Shown here piece after piece: positions 9,123 to 38,395 of a DNA stretch of 64,000 bases. Position 1 is the first letter of the stretch. Each line of letters starts with the position of its first letter. This stretch comes from Apostichopus japonicus (Eukaryota > Echinodermata > Holothuroidea > Aspidochirotida > Stichopodidae): positions 17,417,917-17,481,916 of the forward strand of contig NC_092571.1 of NCBI RefSeq assembly GCF_037975245.1, given 5' to 3'. The translations under genes and the position numbers were made by a program. The notes under the pieces were generated by a model, which was not told the origin of the DNA, searched no databases, and worked only from the letters and a program-made list of their open reading frames with translations.

Positions 9123-9146
9123 ATGGCAAGGCGCAAAGTGAGTCAG
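9123..9146 (+). CDS. Gene A coding exon 1 (start codon)
   Basis: Encodes MARRKVSQ, followed by donor GTAAAT; phase 0. An acceptor-like TTTGACAG ends at 9087, so the exon may begin at 9088 with an untranslated leader, as in gene B. An alternative donor GTGAGT at 9138 would shorten it, but the end KVSQ matches KVSK of gene B. Confidence 0.7.
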
Positions 9147-12100
9147 GTAAATTTTGTATCTAATTATTATTCTGCACTAGTTTATTTATTCATAGATCTG
9201 TTAGTATTTTGGTTTTGGCCGGGAGAGGAGTTTGAAATTTATGACTCTCTTCTTGTTTCTTAGCTGTCCTTAAAACTAAGTTAGCATTGACTTTGCTACA
9301 ATCCTGCGGAATGATTCTCGACCCTTATAGGAAAAATGCAGTATCTGATTGTGGGATGTTACTGGTCAAGGCCTGTTTCAACTAGACCTAACTCTATGGA
9401 ATTACACAAAGTCACGGTAGTATTTCGCCCAGGATTGAACGAGAAGCGTGGATTTGGATATTCACTGCTAAATTTGGTTTATTGACAGGATACTTTTTCT
9501 GTGTTTGTACTTTTGGATATTAAAACGAGTAAGTAGGCCTACTATGTTCAGCTAAAGCTTAGTCATGTTTATGCTACCCTGGTCGATTCGGGCCAGCGTC
9601 TTCTCGTAGTTGTTCGATTATGTTTAGTGTTTTTTGGGGTAATTCGGTGACAGTAACGTAAACCATTTTCCTGTCACATATCACGCATGAGGCATCTTTT
9701 AGGTCTATTCTTCTGTTCAGTTTGCGGTATCTTGCGATCAAATTGTATTACGGAATCGGCAAGCTGCTTGCATGTTCTACAGTATATTTTACTGTATGTA
9801 CCTATTGACCCTCCGCTGTGTAAACGATGCCTCCATTTGAGTGGAAATTTTGCTAATAAAATAACCCATTTTACTCAATTGTCTGCTTAAAATTGTCTTA
9901 AATCTAGTTGTTTACCTTCATATGTTCTTGTTTTAAGGTAACAGCTTTTTAAACGCTCAAAATTGGAAGTCAAATACAGTACAATTGTTCGCTATCTGTG
10001 TATAAACAGTGCCTAGTTCAGTGTTTGATTTTTCGGGGTATACCAATTATGACGTCACACGGTGACCAGAGACTCCTTTGGGTCAATCTCTGTTTGCAGA
10101 CATTCCAGAGGGTCATGTCACGTGACTAGCCAAAATGTCCATTTTCGTGGTCGTTTTTTTATGGGTTATAGTAGGTTTTCGAAGATTATATTTTACACAT
10201 GTTGATTATGCGTATGTAAACTCCCAAATTAATGGTAAACCCCCCCAAAAAATTTGTCTCCATAGTTGGTCTTTAAAAATTTTGAGTCTATGATATGGAA
10301 ACTCTTCTTTAACACAGACCTAATGATCTATGTATGTTTGTGTGTATGTATGTATGTATGTATGTATTTTAGATCCTCCTGCAAGCAGGAACTTGCTAGG
10401 AAGTCATCATCGGCTTATCAAAGCCGCAAGCTGACCGAAGTCATTTTTTTTTCATTCATATTCAACATCCATGATGGCTTATGTACAGAATGATACTGTG
10501 CTTTAACTCAGTGCATATCCTAAACATTTTATAGTACATTTTGATCCAACATGTCATCCCTTTTTGACAAGATATGCCAAAAAAAATAAGCGTAAAAAAA
10601 CAGGAAAATGGATGAAAAGATGACGAACATTTGTGCATGTTTAATGGCCTGAATTTTGTTTATTCCATGTTCCCATGACAACATCAGGACTTAAATTAAT
10701 GATCAGGAGGAGCAAGAAAATCTATTTAGAGCAAGTCAGAAGTACTTTGGAGACTCATTAAAAAGGCTGGCTTTTCTTATTAACTTTGTTGGCTTCAAGG
10801 GTGAGAAGACATAAAGAAACATCTCATGCCGGTAATCTGACCTAGTTTCAAATGAGGTGTAACAGAAGTGTTAGACACCACCATCGATCCCAGAAAATAC
10901 ACACACAGCTTGCTACCGTTGGTAATTAGACACTAGTGTACAGTCAATACATACAGCTACGGTCAATACCCACAACACAGTGTACATAGCAGCGATGGAC
11001 ATCTCACGTCTAGATAAAAGATAACAAGGTATCACGTTTCATTACTGTCTGCATTTTGTAGCAACAAGAAGAAAACTTCACTTGCAAGCAACGGAAAGTT
11101 AACTTTTTCAGAGCCTGGCATGAGGTTTGGGGTGAGTCTTCAATGCCTTTAACATACCGTCTGCATTTAAAACTTGTCTCCCTTTAGATTCTTGGCTGTA
11201 TTGCATGCGTTGTATTGGTTGCGATTGCCTCTGGTCAAGAAGCAGAAGTCTTGTCAGGTCCTGTTGCCAACCAAGAAGATGTAAGTTTGTTTTGAAATTT
11301 CATTATCAGGCCTAGAATTTTACAATTTCATCCACAAGATTGCTAACAAATGCAATCGTTAAAAAATTCTAGTGGCTACTATCAAGTTCCCACTGCCATT
11401 GTACGGAATTACAGCACACAGCAGTTACATTACTGGGTTATGGGAGCAGCACAATATTATTTGCTGATAAATAAGCAGTGATACGCTGGTTGAAAATAGG
11501 TTGAAAATCCTCCTGATATTTTGACTATCTTTTTTTTTATTCTTAACTTCTACAGGCAGAAAATGCCAAATCCATTAGCATTCAGCCAGAATAAATAGCC
11601 ATAATTTTGAGAGTTGAACATATCTAGGCTAGGTAGGTTCAAAGCGCAACAACAAACGTTACAGATGTAACTACAGATGTTGATTTTGAGAGGGTAAACG
11701 TTTTAAAAAGAAGAAAAGAAAAGGAGTAGGGGAAAAGCTGACGTTTATGTGACAAAAGGAGAGAGAAAAGAATATTAAACTGGCAGTATTGCGATGGATT
11801 AGAGTTATAATCATTCTTGGCCTTAAACCACAAACAAAGTTCTGTGTAGCTATTGACTTTTCACCACCCAGAGTCATCAACTTTAATTTTAATAGATGGT
11901 ATTAATTTAGCCTCTGAGAATCAATTCATATATCATTGTTTTCATAAAACATATACTTTAATTCCATTTGCTTTCACCAGAACGAAGAATGCTTTGTTGA
12001 AGATGATCAAGCTGATTCTTGTAATAAAGGTTACCATAGAAACAGTGGCCATACGTGTGGCCGTACGTAAGTTGCACTTTATGATCTACCATGTACCATG

Positions 12101-15100
12101 GGAAATAACAAACAAGTTTCAAAGAGCAAAGAAGGTATTGATGAGAATGAAAATCATTGGCGTCTGGACTATATGTCAACTAGGAAGTTTTCTGGAAGAG
12201 TTTCGAATAGAGTTTTGAAAAGAGTTTTGTAATAAACTTGTGTAAATTCCAATTGAAAAAAAGAACAGAGATTTAAAAATATGAGATGTTTCTGATATTT
12301 TTTAGCTCTAAGTTGTGGATCATCGTCATCTTATTGCTATAGATGATAAGCATTTACTTTAACTACATTTTCAGAATTTTACCATCTCATCGATTTTCAG
12401 GATTCCATAGAGTGGACAGTGTGACAACAACACAGTTTTGTTAGGCTAACAAAGTTTTTTTTTTTCTCCCTCAATAATGGTAGGAGCTATAACCAACTAG
12501 GACTTGTTCAGGATGAAAATTATTTATCTAGTCATTTATCATGTAGAAATTTGTAATGATTTATTTCCATGGTAATAATGTAGTTCAAATATGATGTTGT
12601 GTACACTTTCTTACTTTTTTTGTTTGTTACTGCTTGCAATAATACTTCTACCTGTATGCAAGATTAAACTAAGCTGTTTACATATTGTGGTTCACAGCTT
12701 CTGTAAAGGTTCTTGTTTGTGTTTGTTGCTCGCAAGTGTATTTATGCTCGATCAGTTTGGAGCTGGTCATGTTAACAGCAGAGAGAGGCTTCCCCCTCCC
12801 CCCCTTCCCACTTCTTTTCCAGTTTCAAAACTAATCTGTCAATCTTTTGTAATTGGTATAAAATACTCAACAAGTAGAAGAAACAAAATGCCTAGAGGTA
12901 GATTTATAAAATATAAATGATTAAGAAGATTCCCAAGAAAGATGAAAGAAGGAACTTTTAGACTGAAATTCCAACAGACACATTAAATAAATGAAATTAA
13001 CATAACAAAAAAAGCAAGAAAGAGGAAAACTTAACTGAGAACAGATTTCAGAGCTAGATACAGATCATGAGAGAGAATTATGAATTAATGAAGAGCAGGG
13101 TAGATTTTATAACTGGACCTGAAATCCGCAAGTAAGACTAAGGTTTTTTTCAACTTACATTCTATATTTTTTCCAGATAGTTGGGCCAGGGAGAGTATTA
13201 AATTATTACTTCGCATAATAATAATAATAATTATATTAGGCATTTAGCTACGCTATTCATGGTAAACCATATCACAACGCTTACAAGTTATATTACCCCT
13301 GCTCAATGATAACCTGTCCCAGAGACAATCCCTCCAGGCGGCAGCAGTTATATACTGCGCCCAATGGCAAGTTACCTCACAGGTACCCATTTAACCCCTG
13401 GGTGGAGAGAGGCAAGTGAGATAAAGCATCTTTCCCAAGGACACAACATAATGAACTAGGCAGGAATCGAACCAGCAATCCTTGGATCATGAGTCTGATG
13501 CCTTAGCCAATTGGCCACCATGCTCTCCCATGCTTCCCATGATAGATGATTAGGATGTCGTGGAGGTAGCCCAGAGTGGTATAAAATACATCATAACGGT
13601 TGGAAGAGAGAAGTAGAGTACAGTGTTTAGTACGGTAATTTCAAAATCTCCTTCATAATTCCCATGGAAATGTTTGGAATGCTATTTTTAGACAAAATGT
13701 GAGTATCATTATATTGATTTAGCTCATCACAATATAAACCAACATAAACAGCTGTCAAGGAGCTACAAAAGTTCCTTTTCATTTATTCACTGGCTATAAT
13801 TCTCTTCCTTCGCAGACGGAACTGCTGCCCATGTCAAGAGTACACATACCAACCTGCTTTCAACACGTGCCAGAGCTGCATTCTCTGTACCAACTGCACT
13901 GCAATGGGGAAAATGGTTTGTACCATTTCACACCATACTATACGAAATGAAAACAATTACGGGGGGGGGGGGGGTTGAATTCATGTTTATAATATACAAA
14001 ATCTAAACAGCACATATGAATTTAGGACACTTAGAATCAAATTGGTTTAAAAATGAGAAACAAAACTTTGAAAAAGCTTAACAAAACTTGAACATTTTTA
14101 ATTGCTAGCTATATTCACTTACCATAACTCCTGACATCTTTAATATTCATGTGTAATATCCAGTTGTTGCATTGCATGGTTTACTTTTTTCCCTTCCTTT
14201 CTTTCATCTTTTGTAGGAAATTCATCCATGCAACAATTCTGTTAACGCTGTGTGCGGAAAGCGACTCAACAAGACTCATGGTAATGCAAAGTTAAACTTT
14301 AAGTTAACAAAAAAAGTGTTAGTCTGTGTGTTGTGTGAAAGTCACATACATTTATCTAAGTACTAAAGACCATTTTAAACATGGGGTGTCATAACCTTAC
14401 ATGATGGAGATTGTACTCTTCTGTTGAAAAGGTCACCTGATTGTTGTTGAGAGAATAAGATGGGTGAATAACTGTGTCGTCTCCATTTGTTTCCATTCAG
14501 CTTTGTTTTTTTTTTTGAGGAAACTAAAAGCTTGCATTCCCTTTTAACATCATAAAATGTTGGAAATTGCCTGTGAGAATGAAAACATTGATGGATTTAA
14601 TGTATCTTAACTATGTTTTTTGTCACTCTCAGTAGTTGAAACTTCCTGAATATCTCGTAAACATCGGGAGTATCAGATGGGCAGAATGTCACACTGGTAA
14701 CCTGTACAAGTTAAAGGAGGCGAGTTGCTTCTGCGCTGTCAGTGGAACGTATCCACATCATTTCATTGCAAGTTTGCAGATTTTATTATGATGTCGTTGA
14801 TAGGTGGTAGATATGCGAAACATTAACAGGAGTTCTGTATCATCGCTATAAAATGTGTAAACGGAATGGTTTTCGAAAAATTTGCGGCTAGCAACTAAAG
14901 AGCTGACTGTTAGATTTATGCAAATGCTACTGTAACTACTTACATGTCATACAGTAAGTGTAAGTAATTACCGTTGGTGGACTTATTAATATTCAGCCAC
15001 CTAAGAATGTTCTCTTGATATAGAGCATATTGTGTCAACTTTCTCTTACTGTTGTAGGCTGTATTTCTAGGTTGTCATTATAGTATTTTGTCCCCACTCC

Positions 15101-18100
15101 CTCTCCACTTGTTCCCTCCCCCATTTACTCCTCTTCTCATAGCTCTCTTCCACCCCCTTTTTTCTCCACACCTTTCTGTTTTGTCCTCCAGTTTTTTCCC
15201 TACCCCGTTCCTTTAATCCTCTCTTTGTCCCTCCACTGTTTATCTCCTACCTCTCCTCTTCCCCTGTTGCTTTCTTCTCTCCATCCCTTGTGTACTAATC
15301 CCCTTACATCTATCTCATTGTGTTCACTGTGCTCATTAACCTGTCTGTATTCTGTGCATGTTTTTGTCCCTTCTGTTACTGTTACTTGTCATTTAGCCTC
15401 TGAAGAAAATCCTGCTAGGATTGAAACGTCAGGTCAACTTACTTTTACACATAGTATTTAGGATGTGAGTGTTACACCAATATTGTTTCTTTTCTCCATT
15501 TTCTTTTTGATATCCAGAGACATTTACAAGTGCCACCACAAGACCCAATTTATCAACAACTCTCAATGGAACCACCACCCCTACTGGAACCACAACCCTG
15601 AGTACTCAAGAATGCAATTGCACGGTGCCTGAAAGCTCTCTTGAAACGGGTAAGTTGGTTTTTGGATTATATAGGAGCCAGAGGACACTCAGTTTCTCGG
15701 TTTTGGGGTTTCAATGATGACAGTTGTAACACTATGCAAGCATGCGGCATCTTAAGGTGTTATCCCAAATAACATGTGATCCCAAATAAGGTGTTATCTC
15801 AAATAAGGTATTATTTAAATATGTTCAACAGTAACAAATAAGGAACGAGTATTGGTGCTGATCAAATGTGGAAACCTTGTTAATGTGTCTTCAACCAGGT
15901 TCCAGTTAAAGAACAACATCCTCTCCCAGTGCAAATATTTCTCAGTATATGATATTGCATTTCTGAATCAGAACTGATTGTATTGTTGCAAATAAACTGT
16001 TTAATACTCTCTTCACTGGCACTCACCAGCATTTTTAGACACAAGGAAAAGGTCTTGTTTTTGGTAAGAAATCATCGTACAAATATCTCAAGTTAATCTG
16101 TTGAAAATGAAATGTTATATAAAAATGATACAGTACACCTTGTCACTCACATCTCACAGAACATATGAAAAGAGTATCATGATCATTGTGGTTCTTATTG
16201 ACCCATTTGGAATGATTTCCATGTTTTCTTGTTCATTCTGTTGTCTTTTATTTCACAGAAGATTGCTCTTGTATGCAAACAGGGTTGATTGTCTTCTTCG
16301 TAACTATGATTGGCACAGCGCTGGTAACAGTAGCATTTGTGCTATACATGAGCGAGCGGATAAAGGCCAAGCTGGAGACGTTTAAATGTAAGGAGCCAGT
16401 AGTTTTTCCAAGTATTAAAATGCTAAAAATGCTAATATTTATATCCAGATTTTGAGGATTGTTAATTGTGAAAATTATAATATTTCATGGGGGGGGGGGG
16501 TGGTGGAGGTAATGGTGATAGGGTACTGGAAGTGCTATGGTAGTCAAGTATTTAATAAAGTTCCTATAACTGTTGACCATTTATTTGGCTTTTTTTGGTT
16601 TGGTGTGTGCGTATTTTAGTTCCAAACTGATGTAGTTTCAGCTAACTGGTTTGCAAAAAGGTGTTTTCCCTTAAGTAGTAAGTTTATACTGGGTAAACAG
16701 TAACTAGTTAGTGTTAAAATGAAACATTGTTTTATGTTTATTTTACAATGAAATGTTTCATGGCCTTCCACTGAGCGGCTGTGACCTGTATAATAAGGTG
16801 ACCAGACGTCCCCGATTTTCGAGGACAGTCCCCGATTACAGTGTGCTGTCCCTGATGAACAAGTGTCCCCGAAAATGTCCCCGATTTGTCAAAATGTTCA
16901 GGAATTTCGAAAATATCCCACATTAGTAAAATAATTGTAAAAACAAAATTTAGTCAAGTGTGCAGTCACAGAACGGAACTTATAACCAGTATTTCAGGTG
17001 GGCTAGTGTAAAGTGGAAACACTGTTAAAAATATGTTAGATCGATCTAGCCTATAGCACTCTTTCGACCGTATAAATGGCAACTACGGCGACACAACGAC
17101 ACTTACAGTGTGAGCATGAGCAAATCACAAGCTCTCAAAGAACCACGTAAAGTAAGTGGATTTCATTTAAGAAAAAGCTACATTTTTGAAAATAAAATTG
17201 ATTTAAAAAGTGCTTCAAAGTATCACCATTTTATATCTAAGCACCTTAGGCACTTAAAAATTTTCCAAAGGGGAGGGGAACTGCCCCTTCCTTTAAACCC
17301 CTCCCCCATATCAGTCACGCAATATATGTCCCCAATTTCAGTCACGAAAATATGGTCACCTAACTGTATAATATTGAATCATCTTAACTTTAATAAACAT
17401 TCTTCAACTGTTGGGAATATTTCAGAGGGGTAACAGGTAAAGGAAAATAGCTTTTGTGCCTTTAACAATTTTTCTGAATCGGTCTATTTCAGTCACGAAA
17501 ATATGGTCACCTTACTGTATAATATTGAATCATCTTAACTTTAATAAACATTCTTCAACTGTTGGGAATATTTCAGAGGGGTAACAGGTAAAGGAAAATA
17601 GCTTTTGTGCCTTTAACAATTTTTCTGAATCGGTCTATATGGTAGAGAAGGGGGAGGGGGGGGGGAGACAGGAGGGGTTGAGGTGGTTCCATTCACTTGT
17701 TTAAATATTTTGGATGGAAATGTATTTTCATGATTAGCCAGGCTGCATGATCATTTGTGTTGTGTTTAGAGCTGCATTTTGCATTAAATTTGTGTCAGTT
17801 TTAGTGGTAAGATATTGTAGGTCTTAATGTGAAGTATTTCTGTGTAACACCATGAAAATGTGTCAGCCAATAGACAGTTTTATTACTTACACACTATCCT
17901 GTTTTCCCTCTGATTAATTACACATTATAAACATGAAGCTGAATTCTACTAAATTCTCACCATCATTTAATATATCATAAACTTAAGCTTCGTTTCTAGC
18001 TGTGTTTGCCTTAATAAATTCTGTATTTTTTCTTTCACTTGCCACTTTTGTTCCTATGTCCAGCCATATGTGGGATGAGACGTTATTCACCCACACCTCA

Positions 18101-18104
18101 ATAG
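9123..18104 (+). CDS. TNF receptor superfamily-like gene A (8 coding exons, about 222 aa)
   Basis: Predicted type I membrane receptor for a TNF-like ligand. Coding segments: 9123-9146, 11188-11280, 11981-12066, 13816-13915, 14217-14280, 15518-15649, 16259-16387, 18064-18104. All introns are GT/AG and the frame is continuous. Order: signal peptide (hydrophobic core ILGCIACVVLVAIA), about 60 residues with a TNFR cysteine-rich repeat (C-P-C, Y-x-x-x-F-N-x-C, C-x2-C-x2-C-x2-C, later C and C), a Thr/Ser-rich stalk with N-glycosylation sites, one transmembrane helix and a very short tail. The start was chosen because gene B has a matching start (KVS before the donor) and AACATGG context; another in-frame ATG lies at 9054. 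Typical TNFR family members carry three or four repeats; only about one and a half are seen. The tail ends at TAG 18102-18104, without an intact death domain or TRAF-binding motif. The exon model is by eye, without transcripts. Confidence 0.8.
10340..10366 (+). repeat. (TGTA)n microsatellite in gene A intron 1
   Basis: About six TGTA units in a row. Confidence 0.85.
10794..11152 (+). mobile_element. TTAA-type MITE, copy 1 (left end degraded), gene A intron 1
   Basis: Same family as 29,932-30,303 and 21,005-21,362. The right end GAGTCTTCAATGCCTTTAA is intact; the left end is diverged. The interior shares CACCATCGATCCCAGAAAA, GTAATTAGACACTAGTGTAC and AGATAAAAGATAACAAGGTA. It ends only 35 bases before the exon 2 border, so the exon 2 pyrimidine tract directly follows the element. 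Non-coding; TTAA borders suggest piggyBac-type mobilisation. Confidence 0.8.
11188..11280 (+). CDS. Gene A coding exon 2 (signal peptide)
   Basis: Acceptor CTCCCTTTAG, donor GTAAGT, 31 codons, phase 0 on both sides. Hydrophobic core ILGCIACVVLVAIA followed by SGQEAEV, a plausible signal-peptidase site after AIASG or nearby. Confidence 0.85.
11981..12066 (+). CDS. Gene A coding exon 3 (start of cysteine-rich region)
   Basis: Acceptor TTTCACCAG, donor GTAAGT after CCGTAC, phase 0 in and 2 out. Encodes NEECF...DSCNKGYHRNSGHTCGRT, homologous to gene B exon 3 (NKHCF...KSCTEGNYRREQC). C-x-x-G-x-Y is typical of the beginning of a TNFR repeat. Confidence 0.85.
13217..13528 (-). mobile_element. tRNA-derived SINE, minus strand, gene A intron 3
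   Basis: On the minus strand the head reads GGCTAAGGCATCAGACTC (box A-like) and GGTTCGATTCC (box B, 13463-13473), i.e. an RNA polymerase III internal promoter. It is followed by TGTGTCCTTGGGAAAG, CACCCAGGGGTTAAATGGG and a tail rich in ATT repeats. The body matches the SINE units at 48.6-51.4 kb, including GACAGGTTATC and CAGGGTAATAT text, so head-variant members of one family exist here. No tRNA cloverleaf of full quality is expected. Confidence 0.8.
13816..13915 (+). CDS. Gene A coding exon 4 (TNFR cysteine-rich repeat core)
   Basis: Acceptor CTTCGCAG, donor GTTTGT, phase 2 in and 0 out. Encodes RNCCPCQEYTYQPAFNTC, then QSCILCTNCTAMGKM. Cysteine spacing C-x-C-x11-C-x2-C-x2-C-x2-C and the Y-Q-P-x-F-N pattern are those of a TNFR repeat, and the exon aligns residue by residue with gene B exon 4. 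Confidence 0.92.
14217..14280 (+). CDS. Gene A coding exon 5 (end of cysteine-rich repeat)
   Basis: Acceptor TTTTGTAG, donor GTAATG, phase 0 in and 1 out. Encodes EIHPCNNSVNAVCGKRLNKT, supplying the last two cysteines of the repeat and two N-glycosylation sequons (NNS, NKT). Confidence 0.85.
15518..15649 (+). CDS. Gene A coding exon 6 (Thr/Ser stalk)
   Basis: Acceptor GATATCCAG, donor GTAAGT, phase 1 on both sides. About a third of residues are Thr (for example GTTTPTGTTTLSTQ), with NGT and NCT sequons and a C-N-C near the end. This is a likely O-glycosylated membrane-proximal stalk. Longer than the corresponding gene B exon (132 versus 72 bases). Confidence 0.85.
16259..16387 (+). CDS. Gene A coding exon 7 (transmembrane helix)
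   Basis: Acceptor TTATTTCACAG, donor GTAAGG, phase 1 on both sides. Hydrophobic segment LIVFFVTMIGTALVTVAFVL of about 22 residues is followed by basic YMSERIKAK, giving an outside-to-inside topology. Without splicing the frame would run about 20 codons further to a TGA. Confidence 0.85.
16794..17363. mobile_element. hAT-like MITE with TAAGGTGACC ends, gene A intron 7
   Basis: Left end TAAGGTGACCAGACGTCCCC; right end TATGGTCACCTAA (or CCTTA in the duplicated copy at about 17514). Eight-base direct flanks CTGTATAA occur at 16786-16793 and 17364-17371. The element contains several GTCCCCGA motifs. TIR with 8-bp duplication points to the hAT superfamily. No transposase. Confidence 0.75.
17336..17637 (+). 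repeat. 151-bp perfect-looking tandem duplication
   Basis: 17336-17486 and 17487-17637 are almost identical (noted difference CCTAACTG versus CCTTACTG). The duplicated unit contains the right end of the 16794 element plus about 120 bases of its flank, so the duplication happened after the insertion. A G-rich run follows at 17640-17672. Confidence 0.9.
18064..18104 (+). CDS. Gene A coding exon 8 (short tail, TAG stop)
   Basis: Acceptor CTATGTCCAG at 18063. In phase 1 it encodes SICGMRRYSPTPQ and then TAG at 18102-18104. The exon probably extends to a GTAAGT donor at 18129. At that donor the interrupted frame is in phase 0 and joins the next candidate exon at 18848 without a shift. Confidence 0.6.
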
Positions 18105-18369
18105 CCACAGGCAAGAACGACACAGTTGGTAAGTCCTGTGAGATACTGACAGAAAAAGTGATACTAACTATACAAATTATATACTTTTTCCCCCAAATTC
18201 ATTTTTTCTTTCATTTTTGATTCCTCACTAAAAAGTTATATTAACCATGGTGATGTTCATGTGTATGTGAGACACCATGACTTGTAAACACAATACCTCA
18301 CCTAAAATGAGCTTGAATGAATTTCATACTTGGTATGTATACAGACCTTTATGATTCCTCGGCTTTGTT

Positions 18370-18760
18370 TGTTATTGATTGCGGGGTCAGAGGTCATTTG
18401 AGGTCACCGGTGAAGACAACGTAGCATCACTGTAAACAGGTTTACTCAACAATGTGCAGTGGTGGTGTTATTTGGGTAGCAGGTGCTCCTTCATGTTTTA
18501 CTAGCTCTTTACTAGGTTTGGTGGAGATCAAAGAACATTCATTGAAGGTCAAGTATCGTTAAAATCTTGAAACCTCGTCAACAGGTTTAATTAATTATAT
18601 GATCAGTGTTGGTGAATCCCATACACAGAAAGTAGGTATACCCCTTAGGTAGTTCTTGGTTGCTATTAATTTCGGTTGAGGTCAAAGGTCATTTGAAGTT
18701 AAAATCTCAAATTTCATTACTTAAATAGCTCAAGTTTTCAATTCCAGCAGAATCTTCTTC
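18370..18760 (+). repeat. AGGTCA-type dispersed repeat in gene A intron 8
   Basis: Contains GGTCAGAGGTCATTTGAGGT (18386) and GAGGTCAAAGGTCATTTGAA (18677), similar to text near 8735, 8880, 28,999 and 38,793. Probably an old transposon family; AGGTCA half-sites come with it. Confidence 0.5.
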
Positions 18761-18847
18761 AGAGACAGAGTTCTTATTTGAGATCACTATGTCTTGTTGC
18801 CATATTGCAGTATAGACAAGCATCTTTTTCTCTCTCTGTTAACCAAG

Positions 18848-19018
18848 GTACTTAGAGATTGGTCAACAGCAGTTACCTTTTATGGCCTGTACCACAACTT
18901 GCTACTACCCAAAGAGAGCGAGGTTGGTGATAACTCCAACGTGAGGAATATTGCAGATTAGCTCGAAGAAAGAAAGGTTGCAGACACTCCGAAGAAAGTT
19001 CTGAAGTGGCTTACATGA
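18848..19018 (+). pseudogene. Candidate gene A exon 9: interrupted cytoplasmic-tail frame
   Basis: A strong acceptor (pyrimidine tract ending TTAACCAAG at 18847) precedes a frame that reads VLRDWSTAVTFYGLYHN, continues through an acidic segment to NVRNIAD, then TAG (18959-18961), then LEERKVADTPKKVLKWLT and TGA (19016-19018). It is in register with gene A across the exon 8 donor. The helical, charged character and the DW near the beginning are loosely reminiscent of a death domain, but I cannot confirm that. Alternatives: a 3' untranslated exon, a decayed signalling domain, or a readthrough extension. Confidence 0.35.
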
Positions 19019-19255
19019 TATTGCTGCTGCCTGCATGGATGTAAGTCAGCGAGGAATCTACTGGCAGACATGAAATACAGTGAAAAATACAGCCTTGAGT
19101 GGATCACACTGATATCAGCTGCCTAGGTATGGACAGACATGTTTGCTACCAGCCTGAAATGTACGTCTATCATGCAAATGAATTGCCTTTGAATGTATGG
19201 CCTTGGAATGTACATTTCAAGAAACGAATGGTTTTGCAATTTTCAACCCTGGATT

Positions 19256-19500
19256 TTAGAGACCTGGAAATATATAAAGTAGCACTGAAATAAGTTTTCT
19301 TTAATAGAGAGATAGATAGATAGATATTAGGTTATTTAAAAAAATCTGGAAATATATATAGCTCTGAAATAATTTTCTTTTAATATAGAGATAGAGAGAA
19401 ATAGATATTAGGTTATTTAAATAAAAAAATCTGGAAACATTTAGCTCTGAAAAAAAGTTTTCTTTTAATATAGAGAGAGAGATAGATATTACGTTATGTA
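19256..19500 (+). repeat. Three diverged tandem copies of a unit of about 85 bp
   Basis: CTGGAAATATATA - GCTCTGAAATAA - TTTTCTTTTAATA - GAGAGATAGATATTAGGTTATTTAA recurs starting near 19264, 19346 and 19430. It contains short GATA runs. Non-coding. Confidence 0.7.
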
Positions 19501-21004: not shown

Positions 21005-21362
21005 ATTAAAGGCATTGAAGACTCGCCCCAAACCGTGTGCTGCCCTCAGAAAAAAGTTAACTTTCTTTTGCTTGCAAGTGAATGTTTTTTCTTGTCGCTA
21101 CAAAATGCAGACTAATAAAAACGTGATACCTTGTTATCTTTTATCTGGACCTAAGATGTCCATCGCTGCTATATGTACACTGTGTTGTGGGTATTGACCG
21201 TAGCTGCCTGTTTTGACTGTGCACTAGTGTCTAATTACCGACGGTAGCAATCGGTGTGTGTATTTCTGGGATCGATGGTGGTGTCTAACACTTCTGTTAC
21301 ACCTTATTCGAAACTAGGTCAGATAACCGGCATCTTTGTGCGCGAGTCTTCACTCCCTTTAA
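21005..21362 (-). mobile_element. TTAA-type MITE, copy 2, complete
   Basis: Begins TTAAAGGCATTGAAGACTCG and ends GAGTCTTCACTCCCTTTAA; both ends carry TTAA and are inverted copies. The interior is the reverse complement of copies 10,794-11,152 and 29,932-30,303. About 358 bp, no protein. Confidence 0.88.
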
Positions 21363-22188: not shown

Positions 22189-22380
22189 TTAAAGGAAGTG
22201 AAGACTCGCGCGCAAAGAAATAACGTCTGATGCCGGTAATATGACCTTGTTTCGAATGAGGTGTAACAGAAGTGTAAGACACCACCATCGATCCAAAAAA
22301 ATACACACACAGCTTCCACCGTCGGTAATTAGACACTAGTGTACAGTCAATACATGCAGCAACGGTCAATACCCACAAAT
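22189..22380 (+). mobile_element. TTAA-type MITE, copy 3, right half missing
   Basis: Starts TTAAAGGAAGTGAAGACTCG and follows the family through CACCATCGATCC, GTAATTAGACACTAGTGTAC and GGTCAATACCCACAA, then leaves it at about 22,380. The right terminal repeat is absent. Confidence 0.85.
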
Positions 22381-22730
22381 GTAATTCTCCATTTTCTGCC
22401 ATAAGTCAGATTTTTCGAAGTGTTGTTTGTATCTTTCGGGTTATTGATACGGAAAACTTCGGATATTGTTTTAAAGCAGAAATAGTGGTTTCACTTTATA
22501 AAGTATGAAAGTAACAGCGTTGTTATCAAAGAAATTTTCTTCTAGTTTTATTAAAGACAAAATGAAACCAAATAACGTGGAAGATTTAAATTAGCTGACT
22601 AATATATTTATTTCAAATAATTTCAAAACAATTTCAAAGTGTTCGTTATTGATTTGCATGTCATAGATGCCATTATGCATTGGAATTAAAGTGTCGGGCC
22701 TAATAGAATTTCGGTAGTTATAGTTCATAA

Positions 22731-28035: not shown

Positions 28036-28062
28036 ATGGCAGGAAGTTACAAAGTTTCAAAG
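28036..28062 (+). CDS. Gene B coding exon 1 (start codon)
   Basis: Encodes MAGSYKVSK; donor GTAATC; phase 0. AAAATGG start context. An acceptor-like TTTTCACCTCAG ends at 28014, as in gene A, so an untranslated exon may lie upstream. Confidence 0.75.
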
Positions 28063-30450
28063 GTAATCTGAATGTTTTGTTTTCATTTGCATGCAAATTA
28101 TGCTTATGTATGTATTGCCTATTTTTTACCATAAAGGTTTTGTTTCAAGAGGTTCAGGTCCGAAATTTATGAGTTGGTTCACAAGTATATAACCCCCCAC
28201 CCCCCTCTCCCCCTCAAACATTGTTTAACGTATATAATTATATGTACATTGCTGCCACATTGCCACTATCTAGAACAATTTAGATAATAGTGTTAAAAAA
28301 GGCTCATGCTTTACTCTCCTTTTGATTCCAACTTCAATCTCAGTTCCTTAGCGATTTTTATCACCATTTGTAGTTATAACCTGAACGGTTTCTGTCATAT
28401 TGTTTTCTATGTAGTTCTTTCTTCCAATTATTACTTTTGCTTTGTAAAGAAGGAATTGCTCGTAAAAGCTTTGCTACTCCAGTCCTCATCCACATCCTTG
28501 TCCTTATGTCTTAATATTACCAGTTATAAATTTTTGGGGGAAAAAAATCAAAGTTATAATTGCTATCTTAGAATATATTTTCATCTCTGCTGTATGAATA
28601 AACTTACAATCATTTCTGATTTTATAATTGGTTATTAGTGGTCAATTATAGTTCTTGCTGTCAGTTGTTCTGATGTTTTAATAATTGCACTATCTTCCTC
28701 CTTTTGGGTGGTAAATTAACCGATACAAGTTTGATTGAAAATGTTATACGATTGATCAAAAAAGCACTCTGTGATAGGTTTGAGTATTAGTAAGCATCGC
28801 CCTACACATTAGTATTAACCACATCTGAATGAGTGGAAGATTTTAAATATTATTACTTTTATGTTATTGCTTCATGGAATTTGACAATAATCAAGCTATT
28901 GAACTATTAATGGTGGAATTTTAGTATTGAATAACATCAAAATATTTAAAAGAAAAAATGCTTCCAGGCTTTTGCAGGTGTGTGATGTGTCCTACAATTG
29001 ACCATGGTCAAAGGTCATTGGCGGTCAACATAGTTCAACTTTGAAAACCTTGGAACCACAAAGCAAAGCTTGGATAATCTTCATACTTGACATGTTGTTG
29101 CATGGTGTTGCTATCCACAATAGTTCAATACATAAATACATAAACATTTGTGTGCATTGTTACATTAAATGTTGTGTAGAATTCGTGAGTGGTTATGTTA
29201 TACCACTAACTATTTTCATACATTTTGTACTTGTTTTTTCTCCTCAGGACCTGAAATGTAGCTTGCTATGTTTATATTTAGTAGGCCTTTTTTTCTTTAC
29301 CATGGCCCAAGTGGTCGAAGATGAAGACCATGAAGCCCATTGTCCAGTTTGCAGCGTAGAAGAGGTTAGTGTGTTCTGTACTTACAATATATAGATATAT
29401 AGATCTTATAAAAACATGCTGTTCCATTGCATTGCAACTCATAGTTTCACGCACACATTTCCTTTCGGGGGTGTCAGGGGGCTTCTTTGAATGGTTACCA
29501 TGACAACATTAGGATACAACTTTGCCACGCTAGTTGAGGGCGTTGTAGCTTACATAATGGCGTCAATGATACCCCCCTTGAGAGTTGAGACAGCTGTATA
29601 TATCAGTCTGGCTAGTGGAAGCTCAAGACAAGGTACAACAACCACACCAAACCATTCGAGCTTTACCAAATAGAAACTGAGTTCTCAAACATATCTGGGA
29701 CTTAAAAAGTTTCTTGGGAAATCCTAAAGCACTCTGATACACATGTGCGCAACTCCGACCAGTGTAATCTCTGTGTGGAAGTAAAGTTCTTCATATTAAG
29801 AAATAGAGCTGAGAAAAGCTACAATACAATCAACAAGCATAGCAAAGTTGTATCCAAATGTTGTCTTGGCAACCGTTCAAAGAAACCCCCTGACAGCCCC
29901 GAAAGGAAAAAGTCTTCCTTGCAAGATTCGGTTAAAGGCATTGAAGACTCGCGCACAAAGAAACGTCTCATGCCCGTAATCTGACCTAGTTTCGATTCTT
30001 CAAATGAGGTGTAACAGAAGTGATAGACACCACCATCGATCCCAGAAAATACACACAGAGCTTGCTACCATCGGTAATTAGACACTAGTGCACAGTCATG
30101 ACACGCAGCTACGGTAATACCCACAACACAGTGTACATATAGCAGCGATGGACATCTCAGGTCTAGATAAAAGATAACAAGGTATCACTTTTCATTACTG
30201 TCTGCATTTTGTAGCGGCATGAAAAAACTCCATTTGCAAGCAACGGAATGTTAACTTTTTCAGATAGCGGCATGGGGTTTGGGGTGAGTCTTCAATGCCT
30301 TAAATTGATGGTCGCTGCAGTGAAAAGAACTCAATGTGTGCGTGAAACTCTGAGTTGCAACGCCATGGAATAGCGTGTTACATATATCTATACAGCTCTG
30401 CACCAGTTTTATTGAGCACTATACTGCTCTTACTGAACTTGATATACTAT

Positions 30451-30491
<41 letters not shown>

Positions 30492-33400
30492 TATATGTGT
30501 AATCCTCCCAAAGAGTTATTGCTATGGTTGTTATCTGTCTTTGCTATCACATACTGATATACTGTACATTTTTTGACTCCATTGATTTCCCCAGAATAAA
30601 CACTGCTTTACAAGTGACGTGGATAAATCTTGCACTGAAGGAAACTATAGAAGAGAACAGTGTGATAATTCGTAAGACACATTTTTTTTATTATACTTTT
30701 TTTAATTAAAATTTTTCTCAACTCATTTTCTGAAAATCTTGTATACTTAATGGCAGTTGCTCTGCTCTGCTATGTAACTTTTCCAGCTCTGTTAACAACT
30801 ACTGTGTACTTTGTCAATCACAGGCTGTTGTATGACTAGCTTCATGCTTTCTGACTGTTATGTCAGAAAGAAAATCAAAAGGAAAATATAGCAACGCAAA
30901 TCATTTCGCTGTTAGTGTGCAACTATGTATGACATCATAACTCTCTGCCTCTAGTTCAGGTACAGTACAAACCGTAAACAATTTCAATCATCAATATCAC
31001 AAGTTGTTAAAAGGATAGCCAGGTGAAAGTTCACTTTTGGCCGATGCGAGGAGCGTACTCCGAGCATCCTGGTGAAATTCCCGTTCAAATCCTGTGTGTT
31101 GTTTTGGAGATAACATTTGAAGTTGACATGTTTTTTGCCAAACGTGAACTTGAAGCAAACAGGTGTGATGTCATAGAATCACTCACTTTGACAGATTTGT
31201 TTATTGTTTTTTTCCCCCTTGGAAACATACATCCAAGTTTTATTCTCCAAAATTGCGATGCATTAACATATGAATACACTACAGTCATTTTGGTATTTAT
31301 TAATAACTTCACATCCCTTAACACAAAGTTGGAACCCTGTCCAATCCAAGGTAAAAATTATTACAAATATACAATTTTAATTGCATACAAATTTCACCGT
31401 GATGCTTTAACAGTGTATATATTGTTCTTTCATTAGCCATAAAGTAACATTTCCACTGGACTCTCCTTTTACAGCTTGAAATGTAGAAAGTAATCTCTCA
31501 GCCACTTTGATTTCTGGTCACAGATACCATACAGTTTTTGTTTCTTTTATTTTGTAGTGAAAGTTGCTGTGATTTTTGTGAAGAGAACACTTATCAGCCA
31601 AAATTCAACAACTGCAAATGTTGCATACTATGCACAAATTGCACTGAACTGGGAAGAGAGGTTCGTTTGCAGCATATATTTGCAAATTTTTTATGTATAT
31701 CTTGTTAATTGTAAATATACCAAATACTCTGTTTTGTATTACATTATTACATATTACAATATGATATCTCATAATTACGTCATGCTAAATACAATGCTAC
31801 TGTTAATATGTCAGTATCCTACAACAGCGCTTCCCGAGGCATGGGTCGCCAATCTCTAATGTTGGGTCAGATTAAATTTAACAGGATGGGTGAACATTAT
31901 TTCTGATGGAATCTGACAGTAAACATCCTTGCTCTCAAAGGGTGTCCCTAGGTTTTGATAAATGTGTGTGTTCTGTTTTTAATTTACTTTCAGTCTATGT
32001 GCAATCAATTGCAATCAAATCAGTCAATGTGCAATCAACTGCAGTCAAATCAGACACATGCAATCAACCCCAATCAAATCAGTAAATGTGCAATCAATTG
32101 CAGTCAAATAAGTCAATGTGCAATCAATAGCAGTCAAATCAGTCAAGGTGTAATCAATTGCAGTCAAATCAGTCGATGTGCAATTAATTGCAATCAAATC
32201 AGTCAACGTGCAATCAATTGCAATCAAATCAGTCAATGTGCAATCAATTGCAGTCAGATCAGTCAATGGGCAATTTTATCATCAATCACATGGAGGTATA
32301 TTATGGGGAAATATCAGGCTCTACTTATTTATGGGTTGCATCTTGCCAAGGAAAAAAGTTTGGAAAGCGAGATCATGTAATGCACTGTTACAAATTATTA
32401 TATACTCGTTATATGACTCTGCACTGGACGAGGATAGTAAGTGTTGGTCTAAGGCATGGGTGCAACATTTAATTCCCTGCTTATTGCATTCTCTGAATAT
32501 TAATTGAAAAGAGGAGAGTTGTTGAAACCTGTCCCTTTTCTGGGATGGTCATGCAGATTGGATTTCAAGTGATCTACTATACATGGTTTTCCACCTCTAA
32601 TGTTCACTAAAATGAGCCAAGGGCCTTCCTCACATTGAGAATGCAAGGGGGATCAGGACTTTATTTTCCCTGTGAGAGGTAAGAAAAGCTGACCTCCGAT
32701 GCGTCCACCCGGAGAGCGAGTGGTGAACCAGCGTCGAAATTCTAGAGCCTTAATACAATCTGACCGAGATGATCATGATGATTGTGTACAAATCAGCGAG
32801 CTAGTTATAGTAGTGCACGTTGTACCAGTCATTACACTGTGTTTGATGCGGAAGTGATGAGGGCAAGTAAAAGGATCTATCTCGGCCCGTACACCTTTGA
32901 ATGCCCTGGCCCAGTATGGATCCTCCCGGAAAGGGAAACCTCGATGGTCCTATGAACATTCAGACTAAGAAGTTGATGACAAGTGTGTTTGTTATTTGCC
33001 CTGTCCTGCATTCTCCAATGTGAACAAGGATTCATAGCTTCAATAGGGTGAGATAGTTAACGATCATACATGACATGACATGTGGTTGTGAAGTTATTTT
33101 TCAGTTTGAAAATTATCGTTTTAAACTTTTTCTCTACGCTCCACAGGAGTTGCAGTCCTGTAACATCACCCACGATGCTAAGTGTGGAAATACTTCTGCT
33201 TCTGTGGCACCAGTTGAAGAAGGTAATGCACAGTAAATCAGAATTTTGACATCGCTTGGATGAGATAAGTAATACAGTGTCTTGGAATAATTTAAAAAAC
33301 AATTTTTTGGGGGAAATTTGGAGAATGACTCTTTTGGCTCATACTTTAGTTTATTTCAGTATTTCCAGTTTCCATTTGTTTCAAAGGTAATTGATTTTAT

Positions 33401-36400
33401 AATGATGAGTGGAGAGAAATGACTTTTTTTGTACTTTCTGGCAAGAATAATATTGTTGAAGAGTGTATCTGTCTGATACAACATTTTCATTACTGCAAGA
33501 CCCTTTTCCTTCACCCTCCCCCTTCCTCTACTCTCACCCTCTCTTTTTTCTCACCAAAAAGATATAGTTGTAGTATTAAAACTCTTTTCTTCCATTTACA
33601 AGTAATATATAGTAGTGTGTCAAACTCATTAAGATTTGAAAGAGAAATATAAAGAAAACCCCTAGTTGTTGGCTGAAATACATCCTATATTTAACCTTTC
33701 TCTGACAAGTCATCACCTTGTAATATTTCAAAATAACTTTTGAATTAGCTTTTATTTCCTACTATTGTAAATGCGTGCATAAAAAATTGCCCAAATGTTT
33801 TCGTTCAGGTTGTGGGAAGTAAGTTTCATACCAAACTGTAGATAAAAAGCCACTCAAAGTTTTGTGTAATTTTACCTTACCTTAAGGAGCATTCTCCAGC
33901 ATTCAGTCCACTCAAAATTAGAAATCATTATGAGGAAGCCATTACTGATGCAAAGACACAGGTAATTTTGTACGCTTGTAGCCAGTATTTGGTTTAGCAC
34001 GGTCTGAAATTTGTATGGTTTTCACTTTTCAACACATTTTGATACCTTTTAAGCATGTGATGTACCCATAGATACTTTTGAACCCCTCTCTCTTTTGTGG
34101 AATATTCTGGTCCTTTTTCTTTTGGTAATGTATGCAAGGTTCCCTTTCTGCATCTTCTCTCTCCTCTATGTTTCTAATTTTTGCTAAATCTTAAGGTACA
34201 TTGCCTGTGTATGCTTCTGCATGGAGTCATGTCAGCATGATATTTTCTCGACAGACTAAATAAGCTGATTTCACCAATTTAAATAGTTATACCTATACAC
34301 CAAATATGTTGTCATTCTCTTGCCATCCCATCTGCACAAAATATCTACAAAATGCAGAGGTTGAGAGTGTTTTTACAACATTTTAGTGTTTAGTGATATC
34401 TCATAGAAACCCCATAAAGTTTATCTTGTCTGTTACATTACATTAATTATTAACATTGAGTGTCTGCTACATTTAATGTATCCTGTAAAGTGGTTATCTT
34501 GACATATTCTTCACGCATGGCACTGGGTCAGTATTGTTGTGCACGAGCCTCTGGTATTTTCATCTCATATGACATACCTCAAAGATATTATCTAGTGTCA
34601 GTTGCATAAATCAATTGTTATTCTTGAGTGACAGTACTACTGTAGGCACACAAGAGCAAACTTGTAGAAGGTTTGAAGTTGGCTACAGTTACATGATTCA
34701 ATATTTTAAACCTGCTGAGAGACATTAATATGGGACTTCAACGTCACTTCGGACACCCACATCAACAGGCACTCCTGAGCTCATGCTAACGTTGCATATC
34801 TATATATGGGTCTACATAACAAAGGCATCTCATACCATAGTATGTCATCAGCAATGTTCAGTGACTCGGTTTACCAGACCGTAGATGGTTAAAATCTGCA
34901 TGTCTAAATTGTCAAAGTTGAACATCACATCATAAAATATATTTGGTCAATCTTTGTTGATAGATGACGTTATGACAGTTTCAAGTATAAGATGGATTTC
35001 CTAGGTACAGTGGATGCGGCGTCTTGGTGTCGCCAAACGTCATAGGAGGGGGTTGGGGGGGGTGAGGTATCACACCTCTATTAACATCACAAATTTGAGT
35101 TTGTAGAGATCTGTTGTAGATAAATGGATGGAAAGAGATAATCCCCAATGAGATCGCTGACAGTTTCTGTCTACAGTTCTTTTTTTTCCAGCATGAGGTC
35201 TAGCATTTATAATTTGCAGAATTTCTAGAATGATAGGCAGTGGGGTAGCCAGCATTCTATCGTAGGGGGAAAGATTTTTCTTAAGGGGGACAACCCTGTG
35301 ATGGTTGATGGTAGGAATTACCAAGAAATATATGAGTGGCATCATTGGTCGCTGAAAATGCACATGGGTTGCTAGCGTTAGTTTGTAATGGTTATACAAC
35401 CAGCCAAATTATTGGCGCTTATTCTGTAGGACAATATTGATCAACGGTCTCCGTATGTGGGTATGATGAAGGCCCAAAATGTGTAATATCTCGGTCTGAT
35501 TACCAAGTTCTGACCTTATATGAAGTATGAACATGAGCCTTGAGGTATGAATACTTGTGATTAGAACTCGAAAAAAATGTAAAAAAGAAGAAATTTGAAT
35601 ACATAACTGGATTTCATTTGGGGGGGGGGGGGCAAGACTGTAGCACAAAGCATCTGGCTACGCCACTGATGATAGGAAGGCCAATATTCAAAAAGAAATA
35701 GGTCCAGTAATGAGTGTAACATCATCAAATTTTTCTGTGTATCCCGTTTCTTTCAAGGCATGCAACAACTTTGGGAACTTTCACTGAAGTTCGCAGTACG
35801 TACTCTGTCTGGGTGTTTTTATGGGAGTTCATATGTAGTGTGCCATCCCCTAAAGCTTGAATGTATTTGCCTGTAAACATGTTCCCATTCGACTTCACTT
35901 TTCACTGCAATGTCCGATCACCCAGTTTAATTGGTTTCTAACTTTCTTTATATTCCGGGCAAAATAACTTCACTGTCATACTGGCATTGTAAAATCCAGT
36001 TTGTGAATGTGAGACAGAGAACAACTTACAGAACTATGTAGCAAATAAAACAATGGTTTCCATGGTGACAGCATTGCAAGTTTAATTGATTTCTAACTTT
36101 CTTTATATTGCGGGCAAAATCACTTCACTGTCATACTGTATTATAAAATCCAGTGTGTAAGTGTGAGACAGAGAACAAGTTACAGAACTATGTAGCACAT
36201 AAAACAATGGTTTTCATGGTGACAGCATTGCCAGTTTAGTTGGTTTCTAACTTTCTTTATATTGCGGGCAAAATAACTTTACTGTCATACAAATTCCAGT
36301 GCGTAAGTGTGAGACAGAGAACAACTTACAGAACTATGTAGCAAATAAAACAATGGTTTCCATGGTGACAGCATTGCCAGTTTAATTGATTTCTAACTTT

Positions 36401-38395
36401 CTTTATATTGCGGGCAAAATAACTTCACTGTCATACTGTATTATAAAATCCAATGTGTAAGTATGAGACAGAGAATAACTTACAGAACTATGTAGCAAAT
36501 AAAACAATGGTTTCCATGGTGACAGCATTGCCAGTTTAATTGATTTCTAACTTTCTTTATATTGCGGGCAAAATCACTTCACTGTCATACTGTATTATAA
36601 AATCCAATGTGTAAGTGTGAGACAGAGAATAACTTACAGAACTATGTAGCTCAAATAAAACACTGGTTTCCATGGTGACAGCATTGCCTTGCAAGACACT
36701 GTTCAGGTTCAAAGCTTTCTGTCGTGCAGGAATATTTTCTTCATTGGCTTCATATTCTGGACATTCATAGTGGGACATGATATCTTTACTACAGTTTTCA
36801 CTCATTTTCACTGATCACTCTTTTCCTGCAAGGGCTACCTAAGTGAGCTATGAACCATTTAACACATGGAGCTACAGTGCATATATACAATGGACGACTA
36901 ATCTGTGTGATGCTAATGGTGCATGAACATGCTGAGATTCCTGCACCATTAGCGTGGAATACTGTATTAGATGGGTTTCATGTGCTTGTCAGTGTATTGA
37001 TTGACTTTACCAGTCCAAACAGGAAATTGTTACTCTGAAGCCGCTTTTACATTATGGATTAATGCTGCGCATTAAATTGGAGGGCTCCTCTGGAAAGCAG
37101 TGCTTCTGCACTGAACAGGACTACCCTCCTTAAAGATGACAATAATAAAAAAAAATAAAAAAAATAGGTTTTTAAAGCCCACCCATTGACAAAAGACTCT
37201 GTGCTAGATATCACGACCCCCCTCCTAACTCCCCCCTCCCGCTTCCCACTTGTGATCACTGAATAGGAAGTTTAGGTTTCTTAACTAGAAGCTGTGAAAC
37301 CTTAACTTACGTAATGTACAGAGCTGCTACGATTACAGTTGTGGCAATTTGCGCATAATAAAACAACAGTGGAAGCTTGGTCACCACTGTCAACCCCGGT
37401 CAACCCCGAGTTCCGGGTCAGCCCCGAGCTGCATCGACATTACAAATTTAAGACAGTGCGTCGGGTTCAACATTGCTCTAATGATCTGTTGTAAACCAGT
37501 TCTAATGTAAACAGGAAATGGAGGTACATATACAGCAAAGAAATAACATCCGATTCCAAACCAGTCCCACAGGTACATTGCACTGGATGGATATGTAAAC
37601 ACAGTATATAACCCATCAATTTCAGACTGGGAGGAGTTGTGTCTTGTGGTATGACCGCTGCACACAGGGATCTAGAGTGCCCGTTCATGTACAGTGTGTA
37701 TTAGTCAGGTATCATGCCACATCTTCAATAAGTTTACCCTTTTCATTTTTGTTTCACAAAGCTGAAGGAGTAACCACCGGTTCAGGCAAAGAGGATGCTT
37801 CTGACTTGCCTCCACAACATACTTGCCCTGAAAGTAAGGAGCATCTTTATGTTTGATTTCTATATATGGTACATTTCATTGTCATGTGCTAAGTATGATC
37901 TTTCTCATTATCCTTCATGGTTCCTCTGATCATGAGGGGAAAGGAACAATTTTGACTTTCAAGGGTTGACATCCTGGGAAAGACAGATGGAGGTGGTCGG
38001 AAAGGGATTGACACATTTAGGTAAATTCTGTTGACCAGGATTGAGTAAGGACTGAATAAGATACACAGATTCCATCCTCCCCCCCCCCCCCCTACCTAGT
38101 TCCTTCCTACCACCTCTGATTTGTTTTTTTTTAAATTGAGGCCAGGTGGCTGGCTGGCTGGTCCCTTTTGGAGGACCAATTATGTAAGTAGATGCCAGTT
38201 ATCATTTCATATATTTTCAGTATTGAACTAACATCATGATGCCATTTTGTTTCAGTCTCTTCTTTTGGAAGCTGTTACAATGTGGCACTGCTGGTCTTCT
38301 TGGCATCATTTACAATAGCATCTCTTTTCTGGATATGCCTGAGTAAATATGCACAGATCTGCCATGACTGGATCAAAAATAATTTGGGATGGTAA
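28036..38395 (+). CDS. TNF receptor superfamily-like gene B (7 coding exons, about 203 aa)
   Basis: Paralogue of gene A and predicted type I membrane receptor. Coding segments: 28036-28062, 29248-29364, 30595-30671, 31558-31660, 33147-33222, 37762-37833, 38256-38395. Order: signal peptide with core LLCLYLVGLFFFTMA, an acidic N-terminus with H-C-P-V-C, a TNFR cysteine-rich repeat (exons 3-5), a short acidic stalk, one transmembrane helix, and a tail of about 17 residues ending NNLGW. Intron phases equal those of gene A up to the transmembrane exon. The stop is TAA at 38393-38395 if unspliced; splicing at the strong donor 38392 to the acceptor at 39046 would create TGA. No death domain or TRAF motif. 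Intron 5 (4.5 kb) holds an hAT-like MITE and a satellite; a DIRS element lies 794 bases after the stop. Confidence 0.8.
28970..29060 (+). repeat. AGGTCA-type dispersed repeat, gene B intron 1
   Basis: ATGGTCAAAGGTCATTGGCGG followed by text on 'TTGAAAACCTTGGAACCACAA' resembles the repeats near 8735 and 18,677. Confidence 0.45.
29248..29364 (+). CDS. Gene B coding exon 2 (signal peptide)
   Basis: Acceptor TTTTTTCTCCTCAG, donor GTTAGT, 39 codons, phase 0 on both sides. Hydrophobic LLCLYLVGLFFFTMAQ, then VVEDEDHEAHCPVCSVEE. The extra C-P-V-C pair is absent from gene A. Confidence 0.87.
29422..30370. mobile_element. TIR element with 38-bp ends, split by a nested MITE, gene B intron 2
   Basis: TTGCAACTCATAGTTTCACG on the left (29,429-) and CGTGAAACTCTGAGTTGCAA on the right (to 30,360) lie inside inverted arms of about 38 bases (29,422-29,459 and 30,333-30,370). 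The TTAA MITE at 29,932-30,303 sits inside it, so this element is older. No target duplication was resolved. The open frame at 29,491-29,673 inside it has no recognised domain. Confidence 0.65.
29932..30303 (+). mobile_element. TTAA-type MITE, copy 4, complete
   Basis: TTAA-AGGCATTGAAGACTCGC at the left, GAGTCTTCAATGCC-TTAA at the right; 372 bp. Interior as in copies 10,794, 21,005 and 22,189. TTAA on both borders is the target preference of piggyBac-type transposases. Not coding. Confidence 0.9.
30453..30490. repeat. (TA)n microsatellite, gene B intron 2
   Basis: About 18 TA units, 105 bases before exon 3. Confidence 0.9.
30595..30671 (+). CDS. Gene B coding exon 3 (start of cysteine-rich region)
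   Basis: Acceptor GATTTCCCCAG, donor GTAAGA, phase 0 in and 2 out. Encodes NKHCFTSDVDKSCTEGNYRR then EQCDNS, aligned with gene A exon 3 (same cysteine order). Confidence 0.87.
31558..31660 (+). CDS. Gene B coding exon 4 (TNFR cysteine-rich repeat core)
   Basis: Acceptor TTATTTTGTAG, donor GTTCGT, phase 2 in and 0 out. Encodes ESCCDFCEENTYQPKFNNC, then KCCILCTNCTELGRE. It shares with gene A exon 4 the signatures TYQPxFNxC and CCxLCTNCT-like spacing; C-x2-C-x11-C arrangement is typical of the TNFR family. Confidence 0.92.
31995..32272 (+). repeat. 30-bp minisatellite, about 9 units, gene B intron 4
   Basis: Unit ATGTGCAATCAATTGCAGTC-AAATCAGTCA with substitutions. Since 30 is divisible by 3, each frame free of stops stays open, giving periodic ORFs on both strands (for example QCAINCSQIS on plus). 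No splice or signal evidence that it is translated. Confidence 0.9.
33147..33222 (+). CDS. Gene B coding exon 5 (end of cysteine-rich repeat)
   Basis: Acceptor CGCTCCACAG, donor GTAATG, phase 0 in and 1 out. Encodes ELQSCNITHDAKCGNTSASV, then APVEEG; last two cysteines of the repeat and NIT and NTS sequons, parallel to gene A exon 5. Confidence 0.87.
35238..35668. mobile_element. hAT-like MITE with CAGTGGGGTAGCCAG ends, gene B intron 5
   Basis: Left CAGTGGGGTAGCCAG, right CTGGCTACGCCACTG (one mismatch), with exact 8-bp flanks ATGATAGG at 35230-35237 and 35669-35676. Contains a run of 11-12 G near its right end. 431 bp, no transposase. The ends resemble, but are distinct from, the CAGTGGCGGAGC family. 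Confidence 0.9.
35925..36690 (+). repeat. Satellite-like array, unit about 153 bp, five copies, gene B intron 5
   Basis: Unit starts CCAGTTTAATTGATTTCTAA, continues through TTTATATTGCGGGCAAAATA and ACTTCACTGTCATACTGTAT, GAGACAGAGAACAACTTACA and ends ATGGTTTCCATGGTGACAGC. Starts near 35,925, 36,078, 36,230, 36,378 and 36,530. Copies are 90 percent or more alike, so the expansion is fairly recent. Confidence 0.92.
36912..36953. repeat. Perfect 12-bp inverted repeat
   Basis: GCTAATGGTGCA and TGCACCATTAGC separated by 18 bases. Too short a stem for a microRNA precursor. Confidence 0.7.
37762..37833 (+). CDS. Gene B coding exon 6 (stalk)
   Basis: Acceptor TTTCACAAAG, donor GTAAGG, phase 1 on both sides. 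Encodes AEGVTTGSGKEDASDLPPQH, then TCPE. Shorter and less Thr-rich than the gene A stalk. Confidence 0.75.
38256..38395 (+). CDS. Gene B coding exon 7 (transmembrane helix and stop)
   Basis: Acceptor TTTTGTTTCAG. Hydrophobic VALLVFFLASFTIASLFWIC followed by LSKYAQICHDWIKNNLGW and TAA. A donor GTAAGG at 38392 overlaps the stop; using it gives phase 2 rather than the phase 1 seen in gene A, and the next candidate exon begins with A, forming TGA. Confidence 0.8.

Follow-up and report, generated by a model that had tools for sequence, protein, structure and literature searches.

What do TNF receptors that lack a death domain do in invertebrates? The question is raised in a review (PMC4979521), and a compact tandem pair of small TNFR-like genes whose exons are defined offers a tractable case for addressing it in the farmed sea cucumber Apostichopus japonicus. 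According to an excerpt of PMC7905041, members of the TNF receptor superfamily (TNFRSF) carry one to six cysteine-rich domains (CRDs), and signaling-incompetent decoys exist besides the death-domain and TRAF groups. The pair is interesting mainly as possible decoys, in an animal group where such receptors have yet to be assigned a function; none of the papers listed by the literature searches deals with these two genes. The stretch of DNA analyzed (the window) is 64,000 nucleotides long (C11:17417917-17481916). Judged from their sequence, the two genes most likely encode ligand-binding, signaling-poor receptors, that is, decoys or partners of another receptor.

Two Same-Strand Genes with a Common Exon Layout

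Spliced reading of the window DNA yielded two genes on the forward strand, gene 1 (9123-18104) and gene 2 (28036-38395), predicted from the DNA to encode 222 residues in eight exons and 203 residues in seven, respectively (Table 1). Neither contains a frame break, and all introns as read are of the GT-AG type. Intron phases 0,0,2,0,1,1 are common to both, with an extra phase 1 intron in gene 1. The first-pass annotation had called these matching phases strong evidence for duplication. The phases are indeed equal, but they are weaker proof than was claimed because the exons were picked with the match in view. The two motifs that it had singled out, KVS in exon 1 and TYQPxFNxC in exon 4, are present in both spliced readings. 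Its exons 1-7 can be read with GT-AG introns, with likely corrections at the 3′ ends: gene 1 probably runs on to 18104, and exon 7 of gene 2 may end at 38391.

Exon 1 was not chosen arbitrarily. In the 4 kb that precede exon 2, gene 1 has four candidate start exons with a donor score of at least 1.5 and gene 2 has two; among these 4 × 2 candidates the pair originally read scored 12, and the runner-up pair scored 0. Each spliced translation contains a hydrophobic leader and one membrane-like segment, candidates for a signal peptide and a membrane helix; 19-residue hydropathy values for genes 1 and 2 were 2.23 and 2.08 near the N terminus and 2.58 and 2.41 near the C terminus.

Repeats are frequent in the region. 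Introns of gene 2 contain tandem arrays of ∼30-base and 150-base units (31970-32304 and 35922-36744). A related interspersed repeat was recognized by eye, in both orientations, at ∼10795-11155, 21010-21350, 22190-22390, and 29930-30310; its copies in the window share words such as TAATTAGACACTAGTG, and a further copy lies in an intron of g3, a relative described below. Just 3′ of gene 2, at 39.9-45.1 kb of the window on the forward strand, is a retroelement with an RVT_1 match (E 1.7e-25), an RNase H-like match, and weak, sub-threshold integrase SAM-like matches, a combination suggestive of a DIRS-type element.

Table 1. Exons of the tandem pair (window coordinates) and of two relatives (C11 coordinates)
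Feature	Position	Strand or location	Phase, basis, or remark
Gene 1 exon 1 (MARRKVSQ)	9123..9146	+	Phase 0; spliced reading and start-exon scan
Gene 1 exon 2, signal peptide-like hydrophobic leader	11188..11280	+	Phase 0; spliced reading
Gene 1 exon 3, partial cysteine-rich repeat	11981..12066	+	Phase 2; spliced reading, four-gene alignment
Gene 1 exon 4, start of the full CRD (TYQPAFNTC)	13816..13915	+	Phase 0; Pfam, genome search
Gene 1 exon 5, CRD end	14217..14280	+	Phase 1; Pfam
Gene 1 exon 6, Thr-rich stalk	15518..15649	+	Phase 1; spliced reading
Gene 1 exon 7, membrane segment and tail start	16259..16387	+	Phase 1; spliced reading
Gene 1 exon 8 (probable), final 13 residues and stop	18064..18104	+	Donor-like site downstream at 18129
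Gene 2 exon 1 (MAGSYKVSK)	28036..28062	+	Phase 0; spliced reading and start-exon scan
Gene 2 exon 2, hydrophobic leader	29248..29364	+	Phase 0; spliced reading
Gene 2 exon 3, partial repeat	30595..30671	+	Phase 2; spliced reading, four-gene alignment
Gene 2 exon 4, CRD (TYQPKFNNC)	31558..31660	+	Phase 0; Pfam, genome search
Gene 2 exon 5, CRD end	33147..33222	+	Phase 1; Pfam
Gene 2 exon 6, stalk	37762..37833	+	Phase 1; spliced reading
Gene 2 exon 7, membrane segment followed by a short tail and the stop codon (38393-38395)	38256..38395	+	GT at 38392 overlaps stop; exon may end at 38391
g3 exons	26161260-26161345, 26161809-26161899, 26163155-26163215, 26163937-26164035, 26168212-26168380, 26169112-26169193	C11	Exon 4 by search, rest by eye
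g4 exons	26189532-26189465, 26188435-26188342, 26186455-26186395, 26185646-26185515, 26179924-26179788	C11, strand opposite g3	Exon 4 by search

Two Relatives on the Same Chromosome

A genome search with the CRD of exons 4 and 5 returned gene 1, gene 2, and a weak match at C11:26161813 (E 1.05). At this position lies an exon that resembles the query, splice-site phases included, and the corresponding gene was designated g3. When the g3 CRD exon was used as the query, a fourth gene, g4, was found on the opposite strand at C11:26188357 (E 0.013; reciprocal E 0.034). The two relatives lie ∼8.7 Mb from the pair in convergent orientation. Both can be read with phases 2,0,1,1 after exons 3-6, like genes 1 and 2, and with membrane segments in exon 7. 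Exon 4 is the only search-derived exon in either gene; the remaining exons were identified by eye, guided by the layout of the pair, and the g4 stalk exon and both membrane exons were chosen by phase or hydropathy scans, so the equal phases are supporting rather than fully independent evidence. A profile built from exons 3-5 of the four genes has 12 invariant columns.

No third copy was found near the pair. When both strands of the window and of 20 kb of flanking sequence at either end were searched, the best exon 4 match other than genes 1 and 2 themselves had an E of 0.17. A stalk/membrane match in the downstream flank (E 0.009) was rejected as such a copy, being weak and containing a stop. 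Elsewhere, a partial match of 16 residues was obtained at C19:23687033 (E 1.5 in the genome CRD search; E 0.012 against a small set), and the search for further copies also gave a match at E 5e-4 in repetitive sequence on C12.

Predicted Tails and Signaling Modules

Death receptors are marked by a death domain, and a genome-wide search (150 scored of 204 candidates) gave no match to this domain in the window. The same search detected a death domain ∼3 kb from CRDs on C23 and is therefore able to see a usual death receptor. None of four TRAF patterns occurs in the predicted tails of gene 1 (in either version) or gene 2, the ends of which are uncertain. As far as the genes have been read, then, the pair appears to differ from usual death-domain or TRAF-binding receptors, as had been proposed. 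Counted by eye, 79 of the 150 scored death-domain matches fall on C12, most of them at ∼19.4-34.2 Mb, a very large expansion.

In genes 1, 2, and g3, the end of exon 7 coincides with a donor-like site (scores 3.4, 5.2, and 6.1), which makes a further exon likely. In gene 1, the best next exon adds 13 residues, and weaker acceptors would give tails up to 55 residues longer, with six candidates of at least 20 residues. For gene 2, 14 of the 16 candidate acceptors at 38.4-39.9 kb add 0-14 residues, and the other two 17 and 36 residues. A single candidate on the far side of the retroelement sits inside a repeat. The likely tail exon of g3 has 82 bases, and its tail seems to be at least 51 residues long. 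Given the weaker acceptors and the g3 tail, a signaling exon could be missed. Comparison of the 3′ regions revealed no convincing shared coding exon among the best 12 matches listed per pair of genes; the strong matches were repeats or, for the convergent g3 and g4, one and the same stretch of DNA, and repeats took up the lists of gene 2 against g3 and g4, where a weaker match could be hidden. With no convincing shared coding exon from either the splice scans or this comparison, a longer tail for the pair was set aside. With the last coding exon uncertain, it is plausible that genes 1 and 2 encode almost no cytoplasmic tail.

These observations bear on the main rival explanation, namely that the pair are signaling receptors of the Fn14 kind, with one CRD and either a very short adaptor-recruiting tail or a tail extended by an unfound exon. 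Short tails can signal; an excerpt of PMC7905041 gives a mapped TRAF site for Fn14 (TNFRSF12A) at P113-E116. The donor-like sites that close exon 7 and the likely g3 tail exon fit this explanation, as does a candidate g3 exon 9 that would carry AIEE, matching the major TRAF2 pattern. Against it stand the predicted tails without a TRAF pattern, the small gain offered by most gene 2 acceptors, and the 3′ comparison. We regard signaling of this kind as possible rather than probable.

Assignment to the TNF Receptor Superfamily

A significant match to Pfam TNFR_c6 had been set beforehand as the test that could refute the annotation. Gene 1 was borderline (16.0 bits, E 0.016), and gene 2 (22.8 bits, E 1.3e-4) was significant by E-value but not by the curated cut-off of 29.4 bits; each matched in one stretch. 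Of the relatives, g4 clears this threshold (33.7 bits, E 4.8e-8), and g3 matches no Pfam family. When the proteins were compared with PDB, gene 1 matched RANK and OX40 (E 0.002-0.004) and gene 2 matched osteoprotegerin (E 0.014; no single stretch passes at the default of 0.001 or at 1). A profile made from the pair alone gave TNFRSF proteins in 22 of 23 matches (best 2.2e-4). With the four-gene profile (exons 3-5), 48 of the 51 matches at E ≤ 1 were TNFRSF (best 1.1e-12, TNFRSF11B), the remainder being ELR1, UL144, and one Eph receptor. The two profiles decide the sub-threshold or borderline Pfam scores in favor of TNFR. They and the g4 Pfam match point to at least one TNFR cysteine-rich domain, the feature that defines membership, and the assignment of the predicted proteins to TNFRSF is well supported.

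Single-gene scores below the Pfam threshold, and the chance matches that arise with small cysteine-rich modules, would also fit membrane proteins with a TNFR-like cysteine pattern and an unrelated function, which are not ligand receptors. In a shuffle control against canonical CRDs found elsewhere in the genome, the real score of 4.0 was reached in 70 cysteine-fixed shuffles and 52 full shuffles, of 100 each. The pair profile fails to detect these canonical CRDs, and the result is uninformative and does not favor that profile. We nevertheless consider an unrelated function unlikely, since both profiles rank TNFRSF first and g4 exceeds the curated cut-off. An exon-level TNFR_c6 scan of the genome listed 45 matches at E ≤ 10, and none of these corresponds to any of the four genes. 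Such a scan can miss genes because an intron splits the CRD, and TNFR counts based on exon-level scans can therefore run low.

An Old Duplication with a Constrained CRD

The gene 1 and gene 2 proteins are 37% identical, rising to 54% in the 49-column CRD core, and their CRDs retrieve each other genome-wide (E 2.8e-5 and 3.1e-6). Over the 74 codons of the CRD, pS is 0.80 (saturated) and pN is 0.32; over 193 codons, the values are 0.76 and 0.47. Saturated synonymous change combined with restrained replacement change indicates an old duplication with a constrained CRD, and by this measure genes 1 and 2 are old, constrained duplicates. The tandem duplication of small TNFR-like receptors that had been proposed is supported by sequence, exon order, phase, and the two additional genes found through the CRD. 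Global alignment of exons (identity 0.59-0.67) and flanks (0.47-0.68) showed little contrast, with exon 1 not above both of its flanks, and this comparison favors neither side. Decay or lack of expression of the duplicates, which the repeat-rich region might suggest, is very improbable given two genes without a frame break, GT-AG splice sites, and restrained replacement change in the CRD.

A Probable Ligand Sink or Receptor Partner

We lean toward the explanation that the pair are type I TNFRSF proteins, old tandem duplicates whose CRD is under purifying selection, that act as ligand sinks or receptor partners. An old tandem duplication would have given rise to both genes, and purifying selection on the CRD would keep them. 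Each predicted product begins with a leader, followed by a partial CRD and a full one, then a stalk, a single membrane helix, and a tail ∼19-27 residues long. The receptors would be displayed at the cell surface, where their ectodomains may bind a TNF-family ligand. A role as sinks for that ligand, or as partners of another receptor, is suggested because the predicted tails have no recognized signaling module. The search for the TNF-ligand domain gave a single match in the genome (C2:10751237-10751560), a lower bound, and so low a count weighs against this explanation.

More speculatively, and with considerable doubt, the pair may belong to a sea cucumber (or echinoderm) TNFR subfamily with one and a half CRDs and at least four members, arranged as two clusters on a single chromosome. 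Within a genome that yielded few TNF ligands and a great many matches to the death domain, two members of this subfamily would have been reduced to almost no tail and would now restrain TNF-type death signaling.

Comparison with Known Receptors

Mouse Tnfrsf22 and Tnfrsf23 are decoy TRAIL receptors that are clustered and small and have short tails. They are mammalian, unlike the sea cucumber pair; identity with the mouse Tnfrsf22/23/26 cluster was dropped, the genome being that of a sea cucumber. RANK, osteoprotegerin (TNFRSF11A/11B), and OX40 (TNFRSF4), the best CRD matches in PDB, have at least three CRDs; the tails of RANK and OX40 bind TRAF, and osteoprotegerin is soluble. Fn14 has a single CRD and a short tail. 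Its tail differs in having a mapped TRAF site, whereas the predicted tails of the pair showed none.

A further likeness, by description, is to the TNFRSF members without a death domain in the sea urchin Strongylocentrotus purpuratus, which like the pair are echinoderm receptors. Two papers give different counts for this species, 13 TNFRs, three with a death domain (PMC4979521), and seven, three with a death domain (PMC6394757). Most are without the domain, and such receptors are therefore ordinary in that echinoderm. A. japonicus itself is represented by a Tnfr16 named in a tree legend of PMC6394757. Echinoderm receptors that lack a death domain were already known, and the pair adds members to this known kind of TNFR.
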